This document shows positions 1 to 14,542 of a DNA stretch of 34,916 nucleotides, piece after piece (position 1 is the first letter of the stretch; the number at the start of each line of letters is the position of its first letter). The position numbers and the translations under genes were made by a program. The notes under the pieces are model-generated. The model worked only from the letters and a program-made list of their open reading frames with translations, had not been told where the DNA came from and searched no databases. This stretch comes from Ferrithrix thermotolerans DSM 19514 (GTDB lineage: Bacteria; Actinomycetota; Acidimicrobiia; Acidimicrobiales; Ilumatobacteraceae): assembly GCA_945861025.1 (NCBI GenBank), contig CAMASN010000031.1, positions 1 through 34,916 of the forward strand, written 5' to 3'.

Positions 1-3000
1 ACGGCGACGGTCTGAGCGACAAGCGCGAACTCAACCTCCAAGAACAGGGTGTCGCCGTGTCGCAGGGTGATGCAGATGCCGACGCCGATGGCCTGAACGA
101 CGCGCAGGAGGTCGCAGCAGGGACCAATCCGGTGCTTGCCGACACCGACCACGATGGACTCAGCGATGGTGAAGAGGTGAGTCATCTTCATAACGGCCGA
201 CAGGCCGGAGGTTGGCCAGTGACCGTTGCCGGTCTTGCCGATCCGATCACCGTGTACTCCGACCCCACGTTGCAGGACACCGACGACGATGGCATCAGCG
301 ACCGTGCCGAGAAGGTTCTGTCGCAGCAGTTGGTGACCGAGAAGCGACTCGACAAGCAGAACCGGCCGTATCACCCCGGCGTGGCCAACTCATCGCCGCT
401 CGACGTTGTTATGTCTGCGCCAGGGTCGGCTGGTTTCTACAGGCCTGGTGATGCGGTTGACATCACCACCACAGTGACTACGCCGATTGCGTTGCAGCCG
501 AGCGTGGTTGACCTCACCTCGTCAGTACGCGCGGGCCGGTTCCTGGCTCCCGGCTTGCTTGCGTTTGACCCGACAGTCGACTTCGATCCGATCACCGGGG
601 CCGGTAGCCAAACGCGGCAAGCCGTTGGGCCTGTCGTACTCCCTTCGGGCGTGCCGAAGGTGCAGTTCGACGCAAAGGTACGTGCCTGGTTGCCGAATGT
701 TGCGGGTATCACACCGACGCTGGTGAAAGAGACGGCACAGAAGCCGTTCGTCGGTAGCAGCCGGCTTCGCCCCGCGACGCCCGACGCCCTTGGAAGCTAC
801 GCGGTCATTGCGTATGGCACACCCAGTAACGGCTTCACGAGAATCAATCTTGTTGATCCGAACGATCCGCTGGTGGTCCTGCGCAACATTGACAGTCGCC
901 CATTCACTCCACGAGAGGCTGATACGGCGTGCAACGACCTCGGGGACTGTGTAACGCTCTCGTCGAACTACACCGGCGAGCTCTACCGCAGGTGGATGTC
1001 TAGCGGTGGCCGCGTTACGGGGTCCGACACCCAGCTCGTGGCAGAAGAGAACACTCCGCTTGCGACCTTTGTCAACACGTTTTCGATCGCCACCGATGGC
1101 CTCGAGTTTGCAGCTGTGGTGAACGTTGGCCTCTCCAGTCGCTTCATCAGGTTCAACGCTGGAGGCGGCATCATTTCAGACGTCGATTCGGGCCCGGGGT
1201 GGCAGCACGCCAAGTTGGTATGGGCTCGCGACCGCTATGTAGCGTTCGGGACGACCCCAAGTACGACTGTGGTGAACTGCTTTGTCGGGTATCGGGAGGG
1301 GTGCCCTGCTGATGAAAAATCAAGCGTTCTTCTTGCCCAAGAGATGCCGAACGGCTACGTGCTGGGAATCGCCGAATTCAACCCGTGGACCAACTCCGAT
1401 CCCACTGCGTTTTTCTACGACGCCCAGCACGACGAAGTCCTTGCTGTCGGTACGCCGGTGGACGCTTCCGGCGCCGTACCCGGTTTCGGTGGCGCGACGA
1501 TCGACGGTGTGCTGTTGAGTGACTTCTCTGCCCAGTTCGGATGCACCACCACCTGCGCGTCTCCAACACGGCATCGGTTGTTCAGCCAAGCCTTCGTGTC
1601 GAGCGTTACGTTCGATCCGGCATCGCAACAGTGGTTGATCGCTGCGACGACGCCAACCGGGTCGATAGCTCAGTTCTATGGGCGCGATCTGTCTGCTGGA
1701 GCAAGCAGCACCGGTGCCGACGAGGTGGCCTGCCCGGCCGCTTCGGCGTTGCCGGTGGTGTCACTCTCGTTCAACGAACTTCCCGGGGCGACCTCGTTTG
1801 CCGATGTGTCGGGTGACGGCCTCGATGCCCAGTTCGCCGTCGGGTCTGGACCCGACGCAGGTGCACCTGGGGCACCGAACCTTCAGGACGTGGGGTTGGG
1901 TGTGAGATTCGTCGACGCATCCGACTCGCTCACGCTGCCGAACACGGCGGTGCTGAGCGCCGACGCTTCAATTTCGATGGCCTTTTGGGTCCGGGTGGAT
2001 GACGCGTCGTCGCCGGAGCCGTTGCGGATCACGTGGGATGCAACACACGAGTTGCGGTTGCGGCCCGACACGGGCGCGGTCGAGTTCGAGTGGGGCAACT
2101 CGTTGGTGACGAACACTGTTGTGAACGACGGCAATTGGCATCTGGTGGTGGCGAGCGCTACCAAGCTCGGCGAAACGCAGTTGGCGGTGGCGAACGCAGC
2201 TGGCACTCCTGTGGTGAACAGAGCATTCGGCTCCGAGAGGCACCTCATGGTTGGCGTGCCGGTGACCGTTCAAGGTGGTGGGTCGGCAGTATCGATCGAC
2301 CAACTGCAGATCTACAACTCTGTCCCGACGGCAGCGACCATTCAGGACCTTGCGGCCAACGTGAGGTCGTCGTGCATGTCGATCAGGAATGTGAATGGAA
2401 CGATCTCTGAGATCGTCAAGTTGTCGTTCACGCAGCCGGCCTCGCCCGCCACGGTGCCCGGCGGAGCGTCGTTGACCTTGCGGGTAGATGGCGCCGCGCC
2501 AGTGTCGTCGGCGGTGGTGCCACAGGGTTGGTTGAACTCGTCGGCATCGAGTTATGTGCTGGCTGGCACGGCTTCTGACGGTCTTGATGGTTCTGGTGTG
2601 GCGAAGGTAGAGGTGAGTGTCGACGGTGGTTCAACGTGGGTCACTGCGACTGGCACCGAGGCGTGGGCTGTCACGATTTCTATTGGTGCCAGCGATGTTC
2701 AGGTGCTGACTCGCTCTACTGATGCAATGGGCAATGTTGAGACGCCTGGTCCTGCCGTGGTCGTGAAGGTCGACAAGGTGAACCCTTCGGTGTCGTTGGC
2801 GGCCCCCGGTGGTGCTGTGAGGCCGTTGCGTGATGCCGTGTCGAACGTGTTGTCGGTGGGGTTGTCGGGTTCGGTGTCGGATGCCAGCAGTGGTGTTGGC
2901 GGTGTCGAGGTGATGGTGATGCCAGCGCTGGCTTCGGCTGCGGTTGACTCGTGGCAGTCGGCCACGGTGGTGGGTGGCGCGTGGTCGATTGACTATTCGT

Positions 3001-5633
3001 TGCCGGCAGCCCCGTTTAATGTTTCGGGTTCGTACACGGTGCGTGTGCGTGCTGTTGACGTTGCTGGCAACCGCACAGGTGATGGTTCGACGTCTGCTGT
3101 GGTGAGGTTGGATAGCACGGGACCAGCGGTGGCATTGAGTGTTGCTGATCTGGCCAAGACAAGTTTGGCTGGCTCGGCTGCTTTGACGGGTTCGGTAACA
3201 GATGCTGCGGGTTCCGGCGTGGCGTCGGTAGATGTGGCGTTCACGCCGATCGAGTTAGCGACGCCAGCGGCGACAGTGTGGAGTACGGCAACGTTGTTGT
3301 CGTCGACAACCTGGTCGATTGCTGTGCCGAGCGGGATCGAAGGGTTCTTCCAAATCGATCTGCGTGCCACTGACAACTTGGGTAATGAGACACTGACGCG
3401 TCGTGTGTGGTCGGGCATCATCGATACGAAGGCACCGGTGTTGTCGTTGACAGCCAGCCCAACGGGTAAAACGATAGGAAACGGTAAGCGGGTGCAGATC
3501 ACTTATTCGTGCTCCGCCGAGGACTTGTTCTTGGATCTAACCAAGTTCGCGTGTCCGGGTGAGTCGACCAAGCCAGCAACTCGTACCGAGTTGGCGGCGG
3601 GGGACTTGAAGACGGCGTTGCAGAAGTCGTTCCCTGGAATCGCGGTGATCTCGAAGGTGTCGGTGAGTTACAAGAGTTGGGAATCGTCGACAACTAGAAA
3701 CGTCACCTTGAAGGGTTGCGACATGTTCGGCAACTGTGCCTCGCAGGTAAATGCGGTGGGCTCGTTGGTCAGAGCGGTGGGGTTGTGGATTCGTTCCGCA
3801 CAGCAACCGGTGCGTTCGCAGGTGTCGTCTCGGGCCGTGTCGCTGCTGGCAGTCGTGGCGGCACCAACGGCAACGATTGTGAGTCCTTTCGATGGTGATC
3901 ATGTGGCCGTGACCTCCACGATTGACGTGCTGTTGTCTGCGCAGGGCACCGAGTCGATCAAGCAGATCGAGGTGCTTGTTGATGACGTCGTTGCCGCCAC
4001 TCGCAGTTTCGGCCTCGGAGCCAAGTTCGCGTACGAAGAAGTGGTCACGATTCCAGTGACCGCTGGTACACGCCTGCTGGAAGTGGTCACGACTGACTGG
4101 AACGATGCCACTGGCACTTCGGGTTTGGTCGAGATCTTCGCCGATGTCGCAGCGCCGGTGGTGACGCTCGCAACCACGTCGCTTGACGTGAGTGACACGT
4201 GGGCGGTCGGCACCGACTTCTATCAGTTCTCCGGAACGGTGACCGACGATGGCACGGTGGCTGAGGTGCAGATCCGGGTGAACGGCGGCAACTGGATCGA
4301 CGTCGCGTTCAATGCAGGCACGTGGCATACGGCGTTGCATATCCCTGGCGCTGACGGCAAGACGCTGTCGGTGTCGGTGCGAGCGATCGACCTAGCCGGT
4401 CGAGTCACGAACATCACCAGCACTGCAGTGGTCGACTTGCTGCCGGTGCAACCAATTGCGTATGTGCGGCCGGACGCCACGATTGTGACGGCCCCCGCAG
4501 CGACGGTGTCGAGTGATCGGGCCGAGTTCACGTTCAGTGGCACCCCAGGCGACAACGCGGTTGCTGGCTACCGTTGCCAGCTCGACACCAACATCGTGGT
4601 GTTGTGTAACACGCCGTACGTGCTCGAGGGCCTCTCGGGGGGCGTTCACACGTTGAAGGTTGCGGCGATCGATGATGCCGGTTACGTGGATCTCAGCCCT
4701 GCGACGCATGTGTGGACGGTCACTCCGACGGGCCCACAAGCAACGCTGGTTTCAGCCCCGACCGGCAACGTCACCGCCCGCACGGCGACCTTTGAGTTCA
4801 CCGCAGCGGCGGGTGCGGTACTTGAGTGCTCGCTCGACGCAGCCATCCCGGAATCGTGCACCAGCCCGTACACCACAGCCGAGCTCGGCGATGGGGTGCA
4901 CACGTTCACCGTGCAGGCCACCCTCGCAGCCGTGTCGGGCACTTCGGTGAGGGCGACATGGACAGTTGTGAACCTGGCCCCAGTAGCTGCAAACCAAACC
5001 GTTGCGGTTGATGCTGACAGCACCGATGGACAGCCGGTCACGTTGGCAGCTGCCGATGTGAGCGCCCTCGTGTACCGGGTTACGGACGCCCCATCCCACG
5101 GATATCTCGTAGGTAACGCCCCGAACGTGGTCTACGTGCCGTTCGACGGTTACCGCGGCTCCGACGTGTTCACGTTCGTAGCCGACGATGGTCAGAGCAC
5201 GTCGAACACCGCCACCGTAAGCGTCAGGGTGCGAGTGCCCGACGTGGTGGCGCCAATCATCGTCAACCCCGGCGACCAGACCGTACACACGTTGGCCACC
5301 GGCAACGGCACCGTGGTGTTCGCCCGGGCAACCGCCACCGACAACTCGGGAAGTGCCACCGTGGTCTGTAACCCCGAATCGGGCAGCGTGTTGCCTCAAG
5401 GTGCCAACAGGATTACCTGCACCGCCAGCGACGCAGAGGGCAACACCAGCAGCACCAGCTTCGTGGTCACCCACGTCTTTGATGCTGTCGGGATCCCACG
5501 CCCAGATACAGACATTCGGCTACCCGTGACGGGTAACGGCAGCCTTCCGCTCTCCGAAGCAATGCTTCTATTGCTGCTCGGCCTCGCGCTGGTTGCGATT
5601 GCCCACCGACGCCAAACCAAACGGCGCCTCTAA
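1..5633 (+). CDS. Giant multidomain LPXTG-anchored surface protein (5' end outside window)
   Basis: The reading frame is open from base 3, so this is the 3' part of a longer gene; a GTG at 57 is probably internal. Numbering residues from 57: Asp-rich thrombospondin type 3-like calcium-binding repeats (DTDHDGLSDGEE, DTDDDGISDRAE) lie before residue 90. A long unassigned segment follows, then a LamG/concanavalin-like domain at about 566-775. Several Ig-like modules follow at about 790-1600, recognisable by recurring 'VDGGSTW' and 'DxxGN' patterns and by two CSLD/CQLD...C repeats. After these come a cadherin-like (tandem-95/Big_9 type) module at about 1640-1725 and a HYR-like domain. The end is a classical sorting signal: LPVTG at 1822-1826, a hydrophobic stretch, and the basic tail HRRQTKRRL. 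It is therefore probably a wall-anchored adhesin or matrix protein processed by a sortase that is not in the window. The ligand is unknown. Confidence 0.88.
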   Translation, partial: GDGLSDKRELNLQEQGVAVSQGDADADADGLNDAQEVAAGTNPVLADTDHDGLSDGEEVSHLHNGRQAGGWPVTVAGLADPITVYSDPTLQDTDDDGISDRAEKVLSQQLVTEKRLDKQNRPYHPGVANSSPLDVVMSAPGSAGFYRPGDAVDITTTVTTPIALQPSVVDLTSSVRAGRFLAPGLLAFDPTVDFDPITGAGSQTRQAVGPVVLPSGVPKVQFDAKVRAWLPNVAGITPTLVKETAQKPFVGSSRLRPATPDALGSYAVIAYGTPSNGFTRINLVDPNDPLVVLRNIDSRPFTPREADTACNDLGDCVTLSSNYTGELYRRWMSSGGRVTGSDTQLVAEENTPLATFVNTFSIATDGLEFAAVVNVGLSSRFIRFNAGGGIISDVDSGPGWQHAKLVWARDRYVAFGTTPSTTVVNCFVGYREGCPADEKSSVLLAQEMPNGYVLGIAEFNPWTNSDPTAFFYDAQHDEVLAVGTPVDASGAVPGFGGATIDGVLLSDFSAQFGCTTTCASPTRHRLFSQAFVSSVTFDPASQQWLIAATTPTGSIAQFYGRDLSAGASSTGADEVACPAASALPVVSLSFNELPGATSFADVSGDGLDAQFAVGSGPDAGAPGAPNLQDVGLGVRFVDASDSLTLPNTAVLSADASISMAFWVRVDDASSPEPLRITWDATHELRLRPDTGAVEFEWGNSLVTNTVVNDGNWHLVVASATKLGETQLAVANAAGTPVVNRAFGSERHLMVGVPVTVQGGGSAVSIDQLQIYNSVPTAATIQDLAANVRSSCMSIRNVNGTISEIVKLSFTQPASPATVPGGASLTLRVDGAAPVSSAVVPQGWLNSSASSYVLAGTASDGLDGSGVAKVEVSVDGGSTWVTATGTEAWAVTISIGASDVQVLTRSTDAMGNVETPGPAVVVKVDKVNPSVSLAAPGGAVRPLRDAVSNVLSVGLSGSVSDASSGVGGVEVMVMPALASAAVDSWQSATVVGGAWSIDYSLPAAPFNVSGSYTVRVRAVDVAGNRTGDGSTSAVVRLDSTGPAVALSVADLAKTSLAGSAALTGSVTDAAGSGVASVDVAFTPIELATPAATVWSTATLLSSTTWSIAVPSGIEGFFQIDLRATDNLGNETLTRRVWSGIIDTKAPVLSLTASPTGKTIGNGKRVQITYSCSAEDLFLDLTKFACPGESTKPATRTELAAGDLKTALQKSFPGIAVISKVSVSYKSWESSTTRNVTLKGCDMFGNCASQVNAVGSLVRAVGLWIRSAQQPVRSQVSSRAVSLLAVVAAPTATIVSPFDGDHVAVTSTIDVLLSAQGTESIKQIEVLVDDVVAATRSFGLGAKFAYEEVVTIPVTAGTRLLEVVTTDWNDATGTSGLVEIFADVAAPVVTLATTSLDVSDTWAVGTDFYQFSGTVTDDGTVAEVQIRVNGGNWIDVAFNAGTWHTALHIPGADGKTLSVSVRAIDLAGRVTNITSTAVVDLLPVQPIAYVRPDATIVTAPAATVSSDRAEFTFSGTPGDNAVAGYRCQLDTNIVVLCNTPYVLEGLSGGVHTLKVAAIDDAGYVDLSPATHVWTVTPTGPQATLVSAPTGNVTARTATFEFTAAAGAVLECSLDAAIPESCTSPYTTAELGDGVHTFTVQATLAAVSGTSVRATWTVVNLAPVAANQTVAVDADSTDGQPVTLAAADVSALVYRVTDAPSHGYLVGNAPNVVYVPFDGYRGSDVFTFVADDGQSTSNTATVSVRVRVPDVVAPIIVNPGDQTVHTLATGNGTVVFARATATDNSGSATVVCNPESGSVLPQGANRITCTASDAEGNTSSTSFVVTHVFDAVGIPRPDTDIRLPVTGNGSLPLSEAMLLLLLGLALVAIAHRRQTKRRL

Positions 5634-9749: not shown

Positions 9750-10424
9750 ATGCGTAGAACAGTTGTAGCGGTTGTCACACTGGTCACACTTTTTTCGGCG
9801 TGTGGCTCAAGCGTCCCTGAGGTTCTGGTGCGATCTGCCGACGATGTGCAAGTGCTCACGCCCGCCGAGGTCAAGCAAGCACGAGCCGACATGGAGCCGA
9901 TCGCTACCGACGGTCCAGCGACCGATGGTTCCGGTGCGACGGCCGCAGGCGGCACTGGCGTCGATGCCGCCGCAGGCGACACGGTTCCGCTCAACAAAGA
10001 CACCCGTCCTCCAGAACTTCGCCTCTTCGATGCGTACGCCAAGTTCAAGAGCTGCATTGAAGATGCCGGCGAGACCATCAAGGGCAACCTGCAGGACCCG
10101 CAGAACCCCGCCTATAAGGATCCCGAATACGTGAAGGTGATCACCACCTGCGCGGCACGATCCGACATCCTTTCGATTCTTCAAGAGATGCAGACCACAC
10201 GCTCCAATCTGAATCCGGACGAGGTCGAGACTCGCAACAAGGCGTTCAAGCTTCTCGAAAAGTGTCTGGTCGATAGGGGCTGGACAATCGAGACCACCAC
10301 CGACAAGATCGGTTTGATCAACCCGTCGGTCTTTCAATCACCAGATGGCACGTTGAATCAGCGTGACATCGACCAGTGTCTATCTGACACTGGTATCAAC
10401 GACGCAATCAATGGAAATGGGTAG
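9750..10424 (+). CDS. Cysteine-paired secreted lipoprotein of exporter operon
   Basis: A protein of 224 residues with a lipoprotein signal peptide: a basic start (MRRT), a hydrophobic core and a lipobox-like FSAC with the lipidated Cys at residue 18. The linker after it is rich in Ala, Gly, Thr and Asp. The mature part carries two similar modules, one starting KSCIEDAGETI and one starting EKCLVDRGWTI, each followed 35-45 residues later by another Cys (TTCAA and DQCLS). This suggests a duplicated fold with one disulfide each. It is the first gene of the operon and ends just before the membrane fusion protein gene. Similar 'xxCMxDxGV' lipoproteins occur beside MacB-type transporters in other actinobacteria (recollection, not searched). 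Function is unknown; a substrate-binding or accessory role for the exporter is inferred from position only. Confidence 0.75.
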   Translation: MRRTVVAVVTLVTLFSACGSSVPEVLVRSADDVQVLTPAEVKQARADMEPIATDGPATDGSGATAAGGTGVDAAAGDTVPLNKDTRPPELRLFDAYAKFKSCIEDAGETIKGNLQDPQNPAYKDPEYVKVITTCAARSDILSILQEMQTTRSNLNPDEVETRNKAFKLLEKCLVDRGWTIETTTDKIGLINPSVFQSPDGTLNQRDIDQCLSDTGINDAINGNG

Positions 10425-10431
10425 TTCGGTT

Positions 10432-12600
10432 ATGGCTTCGGGTAAAAAAGTAGTCATCGGGGTTGGCGTCGTGGCGCTCCTCGCTGGAGTGTTCGTCATC
10501 GGACGCGCCACCATCGACACTCCAACAGTGCGTGGGCTGATCATTAAGCCCCAGGCGGTGACCCGACGAACGCTCAACGACATCCTCACGGTAAACGGTG
10601 TAGTGCGCCGCGACGAGACGCAGACCATTAACTCACCAGTCGACGGCAAGGTCAGCGCGATCTCTGTTGAAGATGGCGACAACATCAATTCTGGCGACCC
10701 GATTTTCTCGCTCGACGGTCGCACCGCGTATGCAGTCGATGGCGATTTTGCATTCTTTCGCAGGCTCGACGTTGGCAGCGACGGGCCCGACGTGTTGCAG
10801 CTTGAGACCATTCTCAAGGCTCAGGGATACGCAGTTTCCAAGCCCGACAACCTCTACACCGAAGAGACGCGATCGGCGCTCGCAAAGTGGCAGATTGATC
10901 GTGGCTACGGCGGCGCAACGCCCGAGCCTGAAGAGAGCGTCACGGTCAGCTTGTTGCCGAACAGCGCTGGCTACAAGGTGGCCAAGGACAACACGGTTGC
11001 GTTCACCATCGTTCCGTCGGCACCTCCAGTGAAAGCCGCGGCCGGTCAGGTCCGCGCTATCCACGCTCCACGGGTGGTCACTAAGCCCACCATCAATGCC
11101 TCGGTCAGCGCAGGCACGGTGAACGAAGGCGACACGTTCAGCCTCACATTCACGGCCGATGTGGCCCCTGCCCAAGACCTCAGCGTTGACCTCACCATCA
11201 ACGGCAGCGCCACCGGCGGCGACGACCCCACCAACGGCGACGACTACGACACCATCAATGGTGACTTCGTGTTCCCCGCCGGACAAACCTCGGTCACGCT
11301 TGACCCGATCTCGGTCTTCCCCGATCAGGTCATCGAGAATGCCGAAGACATCACGGTGCAACTCACCGATCAGTTCGGTAACGACCCCAACTACATCGTT
11401 GGCCCAACGAACCAGGTGCGCGTCAAGATCGCAGCCAACGGCAGCGACTTGCAACCGATCTTTACCATCGAAACCGACTCGGTTGAGGTCGACGAAGGCC
11501 AGCAGGCATCCATAACGATTAAGTCCACCGTCGAGTCCAACGTCGAACAGGATTTCACGTTGAGCTTCTCGGGTTCTGCCGAAGTGGCCAGCGATTATGT
11601 CGAACTCGACAAGAAGACCTTCACGATCGGGGCAGGCCAGACCTCAGTTGGCATCAACGTTCAGATCCGCAAGGACAAAGCTGTAGAAGTCGACGAATCG
11701 CTCATCGTCACCCTCGGCGCCGATCCGAATACCGACGTCGGCCACGTGGCCTACGCCGTTGGTAATCCGTCTACTACGCGCATCACCATCAAGAGCGGCG
11801 ATCTCCCTGAGATGCGTCTGGCCGGTGGCGGTCGCGTGGCCGAGGGTGGCCGAGGCAGTTTTCAGATTGTGGCCGATGCGGCAGTTACCGACGACACGTC
11901 AATTAACTACCAAGTCGGCGGTACCGCTGGCGAGGGCACCGACTATGAGGTGCTCTCTGGCACCGTTATTATGAAAGCCGGAGCATCGACAGTCAATGTG
12001 CCACTCAAGGTGATTAACGACGATGTTGTGTTCTTGCCAAGCGACATGCTTGTCGCCAAATGGCCAGCCCGCGTGGGCAAGGTCGAAGTCGACGAAGGCG
12101 AGTTCATGCTGCAGGGAGCGCCGGTGGTCACCCTCACCGAGCCCGTGTTTACGATCACGATGGAGGTCAGCCCCTCAGATCGCGCCCAACTCGAAGTTGG
12201 CCAGGCAGTCAACGTGAAATTGAAGGCAGGCGATCAGGAATTGACCGGCCTGATCACGTCGCTTGACGATGCTGCAACGGTTGGCGACGCTGGCGAAGAG
12301 TTGTACGAAGGCGTCGTTGAGGTGAAGGGCGAACTCGCCGCGGTCGATGGCGCCTCGGTCACTATCGAGGTCACGCTTGCTGAGAAGATCGACGTGTTGT
12401 CGGTGCCCGTTGCTGCGGTGCTTCGCTCAAGCGATGGCGATGAAGTGCGAGTGGTCAACGATCAGGGCACCATCACCCGGGTGCCAGTCACCATTGGTCT
12501 CATCGATAACGAGTACGTCGAAATTGTCACTGGACTCAAGGGCGACGAGCTTGTTGTCATCGATGTCGACGCCGCCGGATCACCCGCTGCCGGCGGATAA
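10432..12600 (+). CDS. Membrane fusion protein (MacA/HlyD-like) with peptidoglycan-binding and Calx-beta domains
   Basis: About 722 residues. It starts with a signal anchor (MASGKK, then a hydrophobic stretch to residue ~25). A first lipoyl-like half motif follows (INSPVDGKVSAI...GD.I.SGDPIFSLDG, about 65-97), then a peptidoglycan-binding type 1 domain (about 109-162, containing DVLQLETIL and ALAKWQ). Three consecutive Calx-beta-like domains follow (about 219-333, 342-456, 460-533), each opening with a V(N/D/A)EG(D/G)-type turn and containing GxDY or SDY motifs. The second lipoyl/barrel half begins at FLPSDMLVA and contains GEFMLQGAPVVTL; the membrane-proximal domain ends the protein. In MacA-type proteins the insertion site is occupied by an alpha-helical hairpin. 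Start 10432 is chosen for the SD-like GGGTAG; ATG 10411 and 10417 are alternatives. It is probably the extracytoplasmic partner of the ATPase and permease downstream. Confidence 0.88.
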   Translation: MASGKKVVIGVGVVALLAGVFVIGRATIDTPTVRGLIIKPQAVTRRTLNDILTVNGVVRRDETQTINSPVDGKVSAISVEDGDNINSGDPIFSLDGRTAYAVDGDFAFFRRLDVGSDGPDVLQLETILKAQGYAVSKPDNLYTEETRSALAKWQIDRGYGGATPEPEESVTVSLLPNSAGYKVAKDNTVAFTIVPSAPPVKAAAGQVRAIHAPRVVTKPTINASVSAGTVNEGDTFSLTFTADVAPAQDLSVDLTINGSATGGDDPTNGDDYDTINGDFVFPAGQTSVTLDPISVFPDQVIENAEDITVQLTDQFGNDPNYIVGPTNQVRVKIAANGSDLQPIFTIETDSVEVDEGQQASITIKSTVESNVEQDFTLSFSGSAEVASDYVELDKKTFTIGAGQTSVGINVQIRKDKAVEVDESLIVTLGADPNTDVGHVAYAVGNPSTTRITIKSGDLPEMRLAGGGRVAEGGRGSFQIVADAAVTDDTSINYQVGGTAGEGTDYEVLSGTVIMKAGASTVNVPLKVINDDVVFLPSDMLVAKWPARVGKVEVDEGEFMLQGAPVVTLTEPVFTITMEVSPSDRAQLEVGQAVNVKLKAGDQELTGLITSLDDAATVGDAGEELYEGVVEVKGELAAVDGASVTIEVTLAEKIDVLSVPVAAVLRSSDGDEVRVVNDQGTITRVPVTIGLIDNEYVEIVTGLKGDELVVIDVDAAGSPAAGG

Positions 12601-12602
12601 CG

Positions 12603-13355
12603 ATGCTTCACGAACCTGAGACCGACGCAGATGTGTCGGAACAACAATTGGCCAACGAGCCGTATGTCGAACCATTGCTCGAACTCAAAGAAGTGTCGCG
12701 TGTGTACGGCAGCGGCGACGCCAAGGTCTACGCCCTGCGCGACGTTTCATTGCGCATCATGCCCGGAGACTTCGTGTCCATCGTTGGTCCGTCGGGCTCC
12801 GGCAAGTCGACCATGCTTGGTCTGTTGGGATGTCTCGACATCCCAACGTCGGGCACGATCATTGTTGGCGGCAAGACCGTTACTGGGCTCGATGATGCCG
12901 ACCGCACCGAGGTGCGCGGTCGAACCATTGGCTTCGTATTTCAACAGTTCCATCTCATTCCTCACCTCGATGCCACCGGCAATGTCGAGACGGCGTTGCT
13001 GTATCGAGGACTGAGCAAGGCCGAACGTCGTCGGCGCGCCATCGAGTCGCTCGACAAAGTTGGCTTGGGTCATCGTCACGAGCATCGCCCTGTGCAGATG
13101 TCAGGTGGCGAGCAGCAGCGAGTCGCCTTGGCGCGTGCACTGGTGACCGAACCAAAGATCTTGTTGGCCGACGAACCTACGGGCGCGCTCGACTCACAGA
13201 ATGCTGAGAACGTGATGGAGTTGCTCACCAACCTGCAGTCGTCCGAGCGTGCAGTGGTGCTGGTGACCCATGCAGCCGAAGTGGCCGATGCTGCGTTTCG
13301 TAAGGTTTCGATGCGCGACGGTCGCATCGTGAGTGACATGACAAGGGTGCGATGA
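12603..13355 (+). CDS. ABC transporter ATP-binding protein (MacB/LolD type)
   Basis: A nucleotide-binding subunit of about 250 residues. All ABC motifs are intact: Walker A GPSGSGKST, Q-loop FVFQQFHLIP, signature MSGGEQQR, Walker B ILLADEPTGALD and H-loop VTHAAE. The 'LLGCLDIPTSG' and 'DEPTGALDS' wording is that of the MacB/LolD/FtsE group of exporters and mechanotransmission complexes. An N-terminal extension of about 25 acidic residues precedes the domain, so a later start is possible. ATG 12603 comes 2 bases after the stop of the membrane fusion gene, and the 3' end overlaps the permease gene by 4 bases (ATGA), indicating translational coupling. It energises the permease encoded next. Confidence 0.95.
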   Translation: MLHEPETDADVSEQQLANEPYVEPLLELKEVSRVYGSGDAKVYALRDVSLRIMPGDFVSIVGPSGSGKSTMLGLLGCLDIPTSGTIIVGGKTVTGLDDADRTEVRGRTIGFVFQQFHLIPHLDATGNVETALLYRGLSKAERRRRAIESLDKVGLGHRHEHRPVQMSGGEQQRVALARALVTEPKILLADEPTGALDSQNAENVMELLTNLQSSERAVVLVTHAAEVADAAFRKVSMRDGRIVSDMTRVR

Positions 13356-14542
13356 AGACATTCAAAGACCTCCTGATGGTGTCGCTTACTGGCCTCTTTG
13401 CGCGCAAGGTGCGCACGCTGTTGCTGTTGCTCGGGCCAATGATCGGTGTGGCGGCCATCATCGCTGCAGTCGGTCTCACCGACAGCGCTAAGGGCGACCT
13501 CAAAGCAAAGGTCAACAAACTTGGCACCAACCTCATCGAGGTGTCTGCGTCCAGTGCGTTTGGTGGCCAGGACCCCACGCTTCCCGAAGACGTGCTTGAT
13601 CGCGCGCTCAGTGTCACCACCGTGAAGTCGGTAGCCAAGGTGCACGAACTCGCAAACATCGTGGTCACGCCCTATAACGAAGCAAGAGACAAATACGAGG
13701 CAGTGCCTATTCCGGTGCTGGCGAGCGACATGCTGTTGCCCTCGGTGCTCGAGGTCGACCTCATCAGTGGTCGGTGGCTCAACGAATTCGACGAGCAGGC
13801 AACCAGTAGATCGGCCGTGATTGGCATCGGACTCGCGCGGCAGTTCAACTATCTGCCCGGTGAGACACGAACGATCGAACTCGGCAATATTCGTTACGGC
13901 GTGGTCGGGGTGCTCAGCGAAGTAGAGCTTGAGCCGGCGTTCGATAACGCAGTGTTCGTTACGTTCTCGGCGGCCAAGGCCGACTTTGTCGATGCCGACA
14001 AGATCTTGGCCAACAAGATCTATGTGCGTTCGCAGGTAGGTGCCGAGAAAGACACCTCTGAGGCGCTGAAGATATCGATCAACCTCGGTGGTCCCGATGA
14101 GGTGACCACCGACATCAAATCAGAGGCCCTTCAGCTCGCAGCTCAGAGCGATCAGCAGATCAAGCTCATCGTGGTCTCGATGGGCATTCTTGCTTCGATC
14201 GTGGGTGGCGTTGGCATTGCCAACGTGATGTCGATCTCGGTGATTCAGCGCTCTGCTGAAATCGGTATCCGTCGAGCACTGGGTCACACCCGCTCGATCA
14301 TCGCTTCGCAGTTCTTGCTCGAGTCGCTGTTCATCGGTTTGCTCGGTGGGATCTGCGGGGTGTTACTCGGCATTGCGTCCATTTTCCTCGGTGCCACCAT
14401 TGCTGGTTGGGTGTTTGTGTTGGCCCCATGGTTGCCGCCGGCAGGAATCCTGCTGGCAATGGTCATCTCGGTGATTGCCGGCTTGTACCCATCGGTTCGC
14501 GCCGCCAAACTCGAACCTCTCGAAACGCTTCGCCTCGGCTGA
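13352..14542 (+). CDS. MacB-like ABC transporter permease
   Basis: About 396 residues with the four-helix MacB/FtsX topology. One transmembrane segment lies near residues 20-42 (RTLLLLLGPMIGVAAIIAAV). A large extracytoplasmic domain (MacB_PCD type, about 45-265) follows, then three C-terminal helices. The last of these ends in PSVRAAKLEPLETLRLG, the usual MacB-family terminus, and 'AEIGIRRALGHTRSII' is the conserved cytoplasmic coupling segment. The gene overlaps the ATPase gene by 4 bases. In diderms MacB works with MacA and TolC; in this probably monoderm cell the partner is the peptidoglycan-binding fusion protein encoded upstream. The substrate (peptide, antibiotic, lipid) is not predictable; a mechanotransmission role rather than transport is also possible. 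Confidence 0.92.
   Translation: MKTFKDLLMVSLTGLFARKVRTLLLLLGPMIGVAAIIAAVGLTDSAKGDLKAKVNKLGTNLIEVSASSAFGGQDPTLPEDVLDRALSVTTVKSVAKVHELANIVVTPYNEARDKYEAVPIPVLASDMLLPSVLEVDLISGRWLNEFDEQATSRSAVIGIGLARQFNYLPGETRTIELGNIRYGVVGVLSEVELEPAFDNAVFVTFSAAKADFVDADKILANKIYVRSQVGAEKDTSEALKISINLGGPDEVTTDIKSEALQLAAQSDQQIKLIVVSMGILASIVGGVGIANVMSISVIQRSAEIGIRRALGHTRSIIASQFLLESLFIGLLGGICGVLLGIASIFLGATIAGWVFVLAPWLPPAGILLAMVISVIAGLYPSVRAAKLEPLETLRLG

Follow-up and report, generated by a model that had tools for sequence, protein, structure and literature searches.

The window analysed here is a stretch of 34,916 nucleotides from Ferrithrix thermotolerans DSM 19514 (contig CAMASN010000031.1). It contains a cluster of four genes on the + strand, the second of which encodes a membrane fusion protein (MFP, adaptor) of 722 residues with Calx-beta domains (10432..12600, +). 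The first gene encodes a putative lipoprotein of 224 residues (9750..10424, +) with an LFSAC lipobox, recognized by eye, and four conserved cysteines, and ends seven bases upstream of the MFP gene. Directly downstream of the latter follow the genes for a MacB/LolD-type ATP-binding protein of 250 residues (12603..13355, +; ABC_tran, 9.6e-33; MacB model, 1.9e-74, under that model's cut-off) and a MacB-type permease of 396 residues (13352..14542, +; MacB_PCD, 1.7e-21; FtsX, 1.8e-16). The locus thus displays the adjacent MacB-like ATPase and MacB_PCD/FtsX permease by which we define a MacAB-type system, and matches to both proteins also occurred alongside the MFP in all 39 loci with Calx-beta domains. 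In the curated MacB equivalog model, which was built for the fused protein, the ATPase and the permease scored 251.1 and 128.8 bits, both under the cut-off of 966. The reading frame of the MFP gene and its coordinates were correct as given in a preliminary description of this DNA; the frame is open from a GTG at 10363, and the starts of the homologues fit the ATG at 10432.

Pfam and NCBIfam profile matches were used to assign the domains of the MFP, all of which are encoded on the + strand. A hydrophobic N-terminal stretch (residues 6–26, by eye) precedes the first lipoyl half (residues 48–97; 10573..10722), in which Biotin_lipoyl_2 matched residues 64–95 over its cut-off (35.1 bits, cut-off 29.8) and HlyD_D23 matched residues 48–106 under its own. 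The second lipoyl half, the beta barrel, and the membrane-proximal part occupy residues 533–715 (12028..12576), with matches to HlyD_3 at 540–634 (50.1 bits, over the cut-off of 22.2) and to RND_mfp at 547–711. The protein therefore possesses the two lipoyl half-motifs and the beta barrel that define an MFP. Scored as a whole against RND_mfp (TIGR01730), it reached 82.5 bits (E 2.6e-23) with a cut-off of 94.9, which places it outside that subfamily model. Behind the first lipoyl half lies a peptidoglycan-binding-like domain (residues 111–158; 10762..10905). PG_binding_1 matched residues 118–156 with 21.2 bits in the protein scan (E 3.4e-4, cut-off 23) and with 25.3 bits, over the cut-off, in the genome search, and the same family was over its cut-off in all five long homologues scanned.

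The remaining region between the lipoyl halves matched Calx-beta clearly over the Pfam cut-off (E 2e-17, 63.8 bits versus 27) in three stretches of the protein scan; in the genome profile search, two of the three matches were over the cut-off. DUF5006 was also over its cut-off here (41.4 versus 34.1 bits; best stretch, residues 228–314). The first two stretches correspond to complete domains, namely domain 1 (residues 219–338; 11086..11445) and domain 2 (residues 342–457; 11455..11802). The third covers only the A–E part of a domain (residues 459–531; 11806..12024) and runs straight into the second lipoyl half. Upstream of domain 1, a putative F–G hairpin of this split domain (residues 163–198; 10918..11025), recognized by the profile described below, is followed by a variable linker rich in proline and alanine (residues 199–218; 11026..11085), which was delimited in an alignment of homologues. 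We regard the domain identities in the window protein as practically certain. The preliminary description had proposed an MFP with peptidoglycan-binding and Calx-beta domains at the site of the MacA/HlyD hairpin, which is borne out by the Pfam matches and the operon; it had named a failure of profile searches to find Calx-beta in residues 219–533 as a reason to abandon this view, and the Pfam profile does find Calx-beta there. Its three consecutive beta modules hold as a Calx-beta array, but consist of two complete domains plus one that is split across the array; residues 163–198, to which the F–G end of the latter is ascribed here, had been left unassigned there.

The fold of the complete domains was compared with known structures using an AlphaFold model of residues 158–545 (388 residues; predicted local distance difference test (pLDDT) 75.2, predicted template modelling score (pTM) 0.48), in which the complete domains are good. 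Foldseek matched the Calx-beta model to NCX/Calx sensors and to the Calx-beta domain of integrin beta4. By VIA-align, domain 2 matched Calx CBD1 with a Z score of 15.3 (root-mean-square deviation (rmsd) 2.0 over 109 residues) and the integrin beta4 domain with a Z score of 14.4 (rmsd 2.3 over 107 residues), while domains 1 and 2 in tandem matched NCX1 (Z 14.6, rmsd 6.0 over 227 residues). The compared rows cover model residues 61–387 and barely include the F–G part. Thus, of the complete seven-strand sandwiches, domains 1 and 2 are complete by profile and domain 2 also by fold; the split domain would be complete only if its halves pair. The fold of the complete domains is shared with CBD1–CBD2 of NCX/CALX and with integrin beta4; in contrast to NCX/CALX, the window array opens with an F–G half, closes with an A–E half, and lacks several calcium ligands.

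No alpha-helical hairpin was found between the lipoyl halves, as residues 158–545 are predicted to consist almost wholly of strands and match Calx-beta. A 346-residue adaptor of Streptomyces sp. NBC_00376 (NZ_CP107961.1), an example of the actinobacterial MFPs that have a peptidoglycan-binding domain and occur with an ABC ATPase and permease, aligns to window residues 31–154 and 536–701, with 12 residues between the aligned blocks versus 381 in the window protein. In adaptors without Calx-beta domains from the same class as the window genome, the site holds almost nothing (e.g., L076) or a coil-like stretch that was judged helical by eye (e.g., L070, L074, and L075), and then the second lipoyl half follows. 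From these comparisons we conclude that the Calx-beta block occupies the place of the hairpin. PG_binding_1 was found by Pfam in L074, L075, L076, and L078; no Pfam family matched L070 at E ≤ 0.01. Together with L071 and L083, L070 belongs to a group of adaptors of 533–534 residues with a coil-like stretch at the site, all from one genus (g79, family f29) with genomes of about 1 Mb or less. The Streptomyces locus has the same gene order as the window (small secreted protein, MFP, ATPase, permease), and its adaptor has the same core of lipoyl, peptidoglycan-binding, and lipoyl parts but no stalk. Four cysteines were seen by eye in its small protein, as in the window lipoprotein; similarity between the two was not detectable by BLASTP (E 0.17).

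The third Calx-beta match extends no further than position 84 of the 119 in the profile, directly abutting the second lipoyl half, and no F–G match was obtained from there onward in the control windows of the F–G profile. The missing domain end is resembled by segment 163–198, as illustrated by 'EESVTVSLLPNSAGYKVAKDNTVAFTI' in the window protein and 'AETVLVSLAAGAGYSIGARNATQVTI' in an interior domain of homologue L086. We took 20 proteins and built a hidden Markov model (HMM) from the F–G hairpins of their two complete domains. After two rounds of iteration restricted to interior parts, the model was applied to the segment following the wall-binding domain in those 32 of 37 proteins in which the landmarks were found (the landmark patterns were not found in L064, L066, L084, L089, and L091; L036, which is identical to the window protein, is not among the 37). 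After iteration, the segment reached at least 10 bits in all 32 homologues, with a median of 21.2 bits and 22.4 bits for the window. Among the controls, this level was reached by 1 of 960 shuffled segments, by none of 587 windows elsewhere in the same proteins, and by none of 14 MFPs without Calx-beta domains (best score, 3.5 bits). We conclude that segment 163–198 is very probably homologous to the F–G end of a Calx-beta domain, as judged by sequence. A plasmid-encoded cyanobacterial Calx-beta protein that aligned to residues 151–505 was considered as further support for the F–G segment and dropped, as residues 151–200 were out of register.

With rebuilt HMMs and a floor of 9.5 bits, F–G and A–E halves alternated strictly, starting with F–G and ending with A–E, and occurred in equal numbers in all 37 proteins. 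The rebuilt HMMs had taken in all hits including the N-terminal segment, and the independent test is that of the interior-only HMM on 32 proteins; the floor removes A–E-like matches of 6 to 8 bits in L012, L015, L090, and L091. This strict order with equal numbers of halves led us to the conclusion that the array is, by sequence, a circularly shifted set of whole domains that is broken in the E–F loop. As read from these profiles, the site between the lipoyl halves is occupied by a peptidoglycan-binding-like domain, an F–G hairpin, n-1 complete Calx-beta domains (with n being 3, 4, or 5), and a set of A–E strands without F–G.

The number of domains per protein was three in 29, four in seven, and five in one of the 37 proteins, so the length of the array differs among homologues while its base is constant. 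The distance from the F–G hairpin to the first A–E part was 18–43 residues in 27 three-domain proteins, 19–39 residues in the seven four-domain proteins, and 71 residues in the five-domain protein, giving 18–71 residues in 35 of the 37; in the two other three-domain proteins, which have extra modules, it was 441–442 residues. Arrays of four domains seem to have originated by more than one route. The first two complete domains of L087 and L088 match domain 2 and the split part of the window protein; in L084 the first matches domain 1. An immunoglobulin-like sandwich has the entry of the chain at one end and the E–F loop and the C-terminus at the opposite end. A base domain joined to the lipoyl domain via its broken E–F loop would therefore have its N-terminal end pointing away, and the array would extend outward.

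Our tentative interpretation, to which we would give slightly less than an even chance, is that a beta stalk has replaced the alpha hairpin in the form of a Calx-beta array cut through one of its members, whose halves flank the array and would re-form the base domain, in cis or by strand exchange between neighbors in the ring. Whole domains might then be gained or lost without disturbing the base, so that the length of the stalk could fit the wall. Several observations weigh against such a split domain, here as in the mechanism proposed below. Before iteration, the F–G HMM reached at least 10 bits in only 24 of the 32 proteins, with a median of 13.1 and 12.3 bits for the window (a level reached by none of the 960 shuffled segments and none of the 587 windows elsewhere), and Pfam found no Calx-beta in the F–G piece alone in either of two proteins. 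Joining the halves of the window protein raised the Pfam score from 24.1 to 25.8 bits (+1.7), compared to 26.1 bits (+2.0) with the natural continuation; for L015, the joined halves rose from 15.2 to 21.7 bits (+6.5) versus 18.0 bits (+2.8), and such scans of joined halves were not counted as decisive. The full-length AlphaFold model, based on an alignment of seven rows, one of them partial, was too poor for use (pLDDT 54.7), and the F–G segment was disordered in it. In the model of residues 158–545, this segment forms strands at 168–173 and 188–193, but at a block pLDDT of 50–62 only, and its pairing with the A–E part was not readable; because the strand partners could not be read from this model, closure in cis is a step that we infer. 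Finally, linkers of about 20 residues cannot span the length of a straight rod made of three or four domains, and for closure in cis the array should therefore be bent or folded back. Such a bent or folded-back array would be a beta counterpart of the hairpin.

Alternatively, the F–G hairpin might complete the A–E part of a neighboring subunit and thus lock the adaptor ring, which we consider unlikely. Such a strand exchange would agree with the distance of about 260 residues between the halves in the sequence, with the lack of a confident placement of the F–G segment in the models, and with the side-by-side position of the adaptors in the pneumococcal hexamer (PMC5768738). However, the linker limits the distance for an exchange much as it does in cis. 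It is still less probable that segment 163–198 is a relic which was left by a recombination cut through a Calx-beta array and has no role in folding. The segment does score below the interior hairpins in many proteins, and the models place it without confidence. Yet it is present in all 32 proteins scored and, with rebuilt HMMs, in all 37, which stem from ten families of one class. Between the window and L035, the nonsynonymous (dN) and synonymous (dS) rates of the F–G segment, 0.205 and 1.245, are near those of complete domain 1 (0.21 and 1.279), with dS near saturation, whereas decay would be expected of a relic.

With regard to calcium, we scored the ligand positions in the array. A full ligand set like that of NCX CBD1 comprises residues of the AB, CD, and EF loops and a C-terminal DDD; the individual positions were numbered after NCX CBD1 (E385, D421, D446, D447, E451, and E454). 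The preliminary description had proposed that the beta stalk could make export or signaling calcium dependent; in such a switch, extracytoplasmic calcium would stiffen the array. The equivalents of E385, D421, D447, E451, and E454 were acidic in 31, 34, 33, 32, and 31 of 37 first domains, in 33, 46, 34, 34, and 33 of 46 further interior domains, and in 27, 36, 27, 27, and 27 of 37 split domains, respectively. Window residues E232, D271, D298, E302, and E305 were invariant in an alignment of 19 sequences, window included, and in longer homologues some of the interior domains close with a run of acidic residues (at least three of the five after strand G in 9 of 46). On the other side, the equivalent of D446, the first aspartate of the EF loop, was acidic in only 5 of 37 first, 5 of 46 further interior, and 16 of 37 split domains (26 of 120 in total). 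At least three acidic residues after strand G occurred in none of the 37 first and none of the 37 split domains (9 of 120 overall), a count that depends on where the HMM match ends and fails in some domains, such as domain 2 of L086, where the DDD lies further on.

The window protein itself does not contain the full set: the equivalent of D446 is P297 in domain 1, no DDD follows strand G in any domain, and the acidic counts after strand G in its three domains are 1, 2, and 0. Moreover, the glutamates at the ligand sites are lost in six of the seven four-repeat proteins and kept in L084 and in the five-repeat protein L086. Calcium dependence as a trait of the family was hence not upheld, and a calcium switch appears rather doubtful to us, also as the Calx-beta fold by itself is no proof of calcium binding. 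Judging from the residues present, partial calcium binding by the window protein is possible, as is binding in some domains of the homologues without it being a property of the family.

Adhesins often contain Calx-beta arrays, and the protein might accordingly be a surface adhesin or signal receptor that is fused to an adaptor and stands outside the export conduit. Two homologues, L090 (1126–4533, - strand; 1136 residues) and L091 (1022–4432, + strand; 1137 residues), could be seen in this light, since they carry further beta modules and, by eye, a second wall-binding motif. We consider this explanation improbable, as the lipoyl and barrel halves and the adjoining MacB-type ATPase and permease have been kept. 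The extra modules of L090 and L091, about three in number by eye and outside the family HMM, sit together with this second motif between the F–G hairpin and the first complete Calx domain; Pfam gives one PG_binding_1 stretch in L090.

To determine the distribution of the layout, we searched samples of the family, the class, and the phylum as well as plasmid records. End-to-end alignments with the window protein were obtained for another 20 proteins, of which one is 100% identical and the others about 46–96%. For the 96% homologue, the NG86 method gave a dN of 0.021 and a dS of 0.38, which indicates purifying selection on the MFP. In the family sample, the protein query matched 28 of 150 genomes at E ≤ 1e-10; as one of these has an adaptor without Calx (G022) and another is cut at a contig end (G092), the Calx region was present in 26 of 150, in some in pieces. 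In the class sample, an alignment of 19 full-length proteins matched 70 of 296 genomes at E ≤ 1e-15. A Calx-type adaptor occurred in 26 of the 296 (counted from match rows, own genome included), which belong to ten families (f1, f6, f12, f15, f27, f35, f36, f38, f48, and f55). Of the other 44 matches, most were confined to the N-terminal part of the adaptor, and three (G226, G275, and G291) to the Calx part. Several class matches have one TGA inside; those used, such as L055, have an open frame throughout the domains.

In the phylum sample, 4 of 396 genomes matched at E ≤ 1e-30; all of them, the window's own genome among the four, belong to the same class. Seven of 72,556 plasmid records matched, and in none of these did a single place cover 80% of the query; among viral contigs, 117 stretches fitted a pattern and none was a relative. 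In these samples and records, the layout was found in one class only, which we take to be Acidimicrobiia. Within it, many homologues share the layout, no characterized one was found among them, and no description of an adaptor combining lipoyl, peptidoglycan-binding, and Calx-beta domains was found in the open-access literature searched. Breaks between reading frames interrupt the adaptor gene in two assemblies (G078 and G349; loci L041 and L085), through either sequencing error or decay.

The lipoprotein-like gene was detected by tblastn upstream of the Calx-type MFP gene in 36 of 39 loci, which are not all independent. In the three loci without a match (L040, L066, and L067), the available sequence starts within the MFP frame or no more than about 250 bases from it, which is too little upstream DNA to include the gene. 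Its cysteines are strongly conserved: C102, C134, and C172 were present in all 27 and C210 in all 24 aligned sequences, window included. No Pfam or NCBIfam family matched the lipoprotein-like gene below E 0.1, and tblastn (E ≤ 0.01) did not find it in 14 loci of adaptors without Calx, the flanks of which are short. The window adaptor was the sole HlyD_3 protein found in its own genome. A TolC-family gene was not found in this genome, which is 95.6% complete (OEP family, no hits at E ≤ 0.001), whereas the same family gave hits in 7 of 14 control genomes; the channel that would make the locus a MacAB-TolC tripartite pump was thus not detected. Elsewhere in the genome (contig C24, 22877–27478), two neighboring frames of 853 and 854 residues each have two MacB_PCD matches and resemble duplicated permeases. 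An open reading frame of 1858 residues lies at the start of the window (57–5633).

Taken together, we think it probable that the window protein is the adaptor of a MacAB-like ATP-binding cassette (ABC) exporter in a single-membrane actinobacterium, with a beta stalk replacing the alpha hairpin. In the mechanism that we propose, the F–G and A–E halves would come together at the base as a single complete sandwich, so that the array, starting and ending beside the lipoyl domain, would form one closed stalk. The adaptors would form a ring on the MacB-type permease, and the wall-binding domain at the base, together with the stalk, would hold the exit path and guide it through the space beneath the wall. 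That the stalk may span the wall, as the preliminary description had suggested, is plausible. The four-cysteine lipoprotein would be a likely partner of the exporter.

Several known systems come close to this one. Streptococcus pneumoniae has a MacAB-like pump, Spr0693-0695, in which, as in the window, a MacB-type transporter is combined with an adaptor in a one-membrane cell; in contrast to the window, the portion of that report drawn on here mentions no wall-binding or Calx-beta domain (PMC5768738). The adaptor YknX was reported to bind peptidoglycan, according to PMC5985334, which cites Xu 2017. As described in the review PMC4446572, the adaptors MacA, AcrA, and HlyD share with the window protein the lipoyl halves, the barrel, and the insertion point between the lipoyl halves, but carry an alpha hairpin where the window protein has a beta insert, with no TolC-family gene found in its genome. 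The same review describes BesA as having no alpha hairpin, like the window protein; however, BesA dispenses with it, whereas the window protein has a large beta insert at this place.

Within one class of actinobacteria, pump and gene order are thus retained, and the hairpin site is taken up by a wall-binding-like domain together with a beta array whose length varies. Its adaptors represent a natural series at one site, ranging from almost nothing and a coil-like stretch to three, four, or five Calx-beta domains. This series could serve to tell possible roles of the arm apart, namely bridging to the wall, guiding the substrate, or only propping the ring. If the closure of the split domain is real, it would constitute a rule for putting a repeat array into a loop while its ends are kept together.

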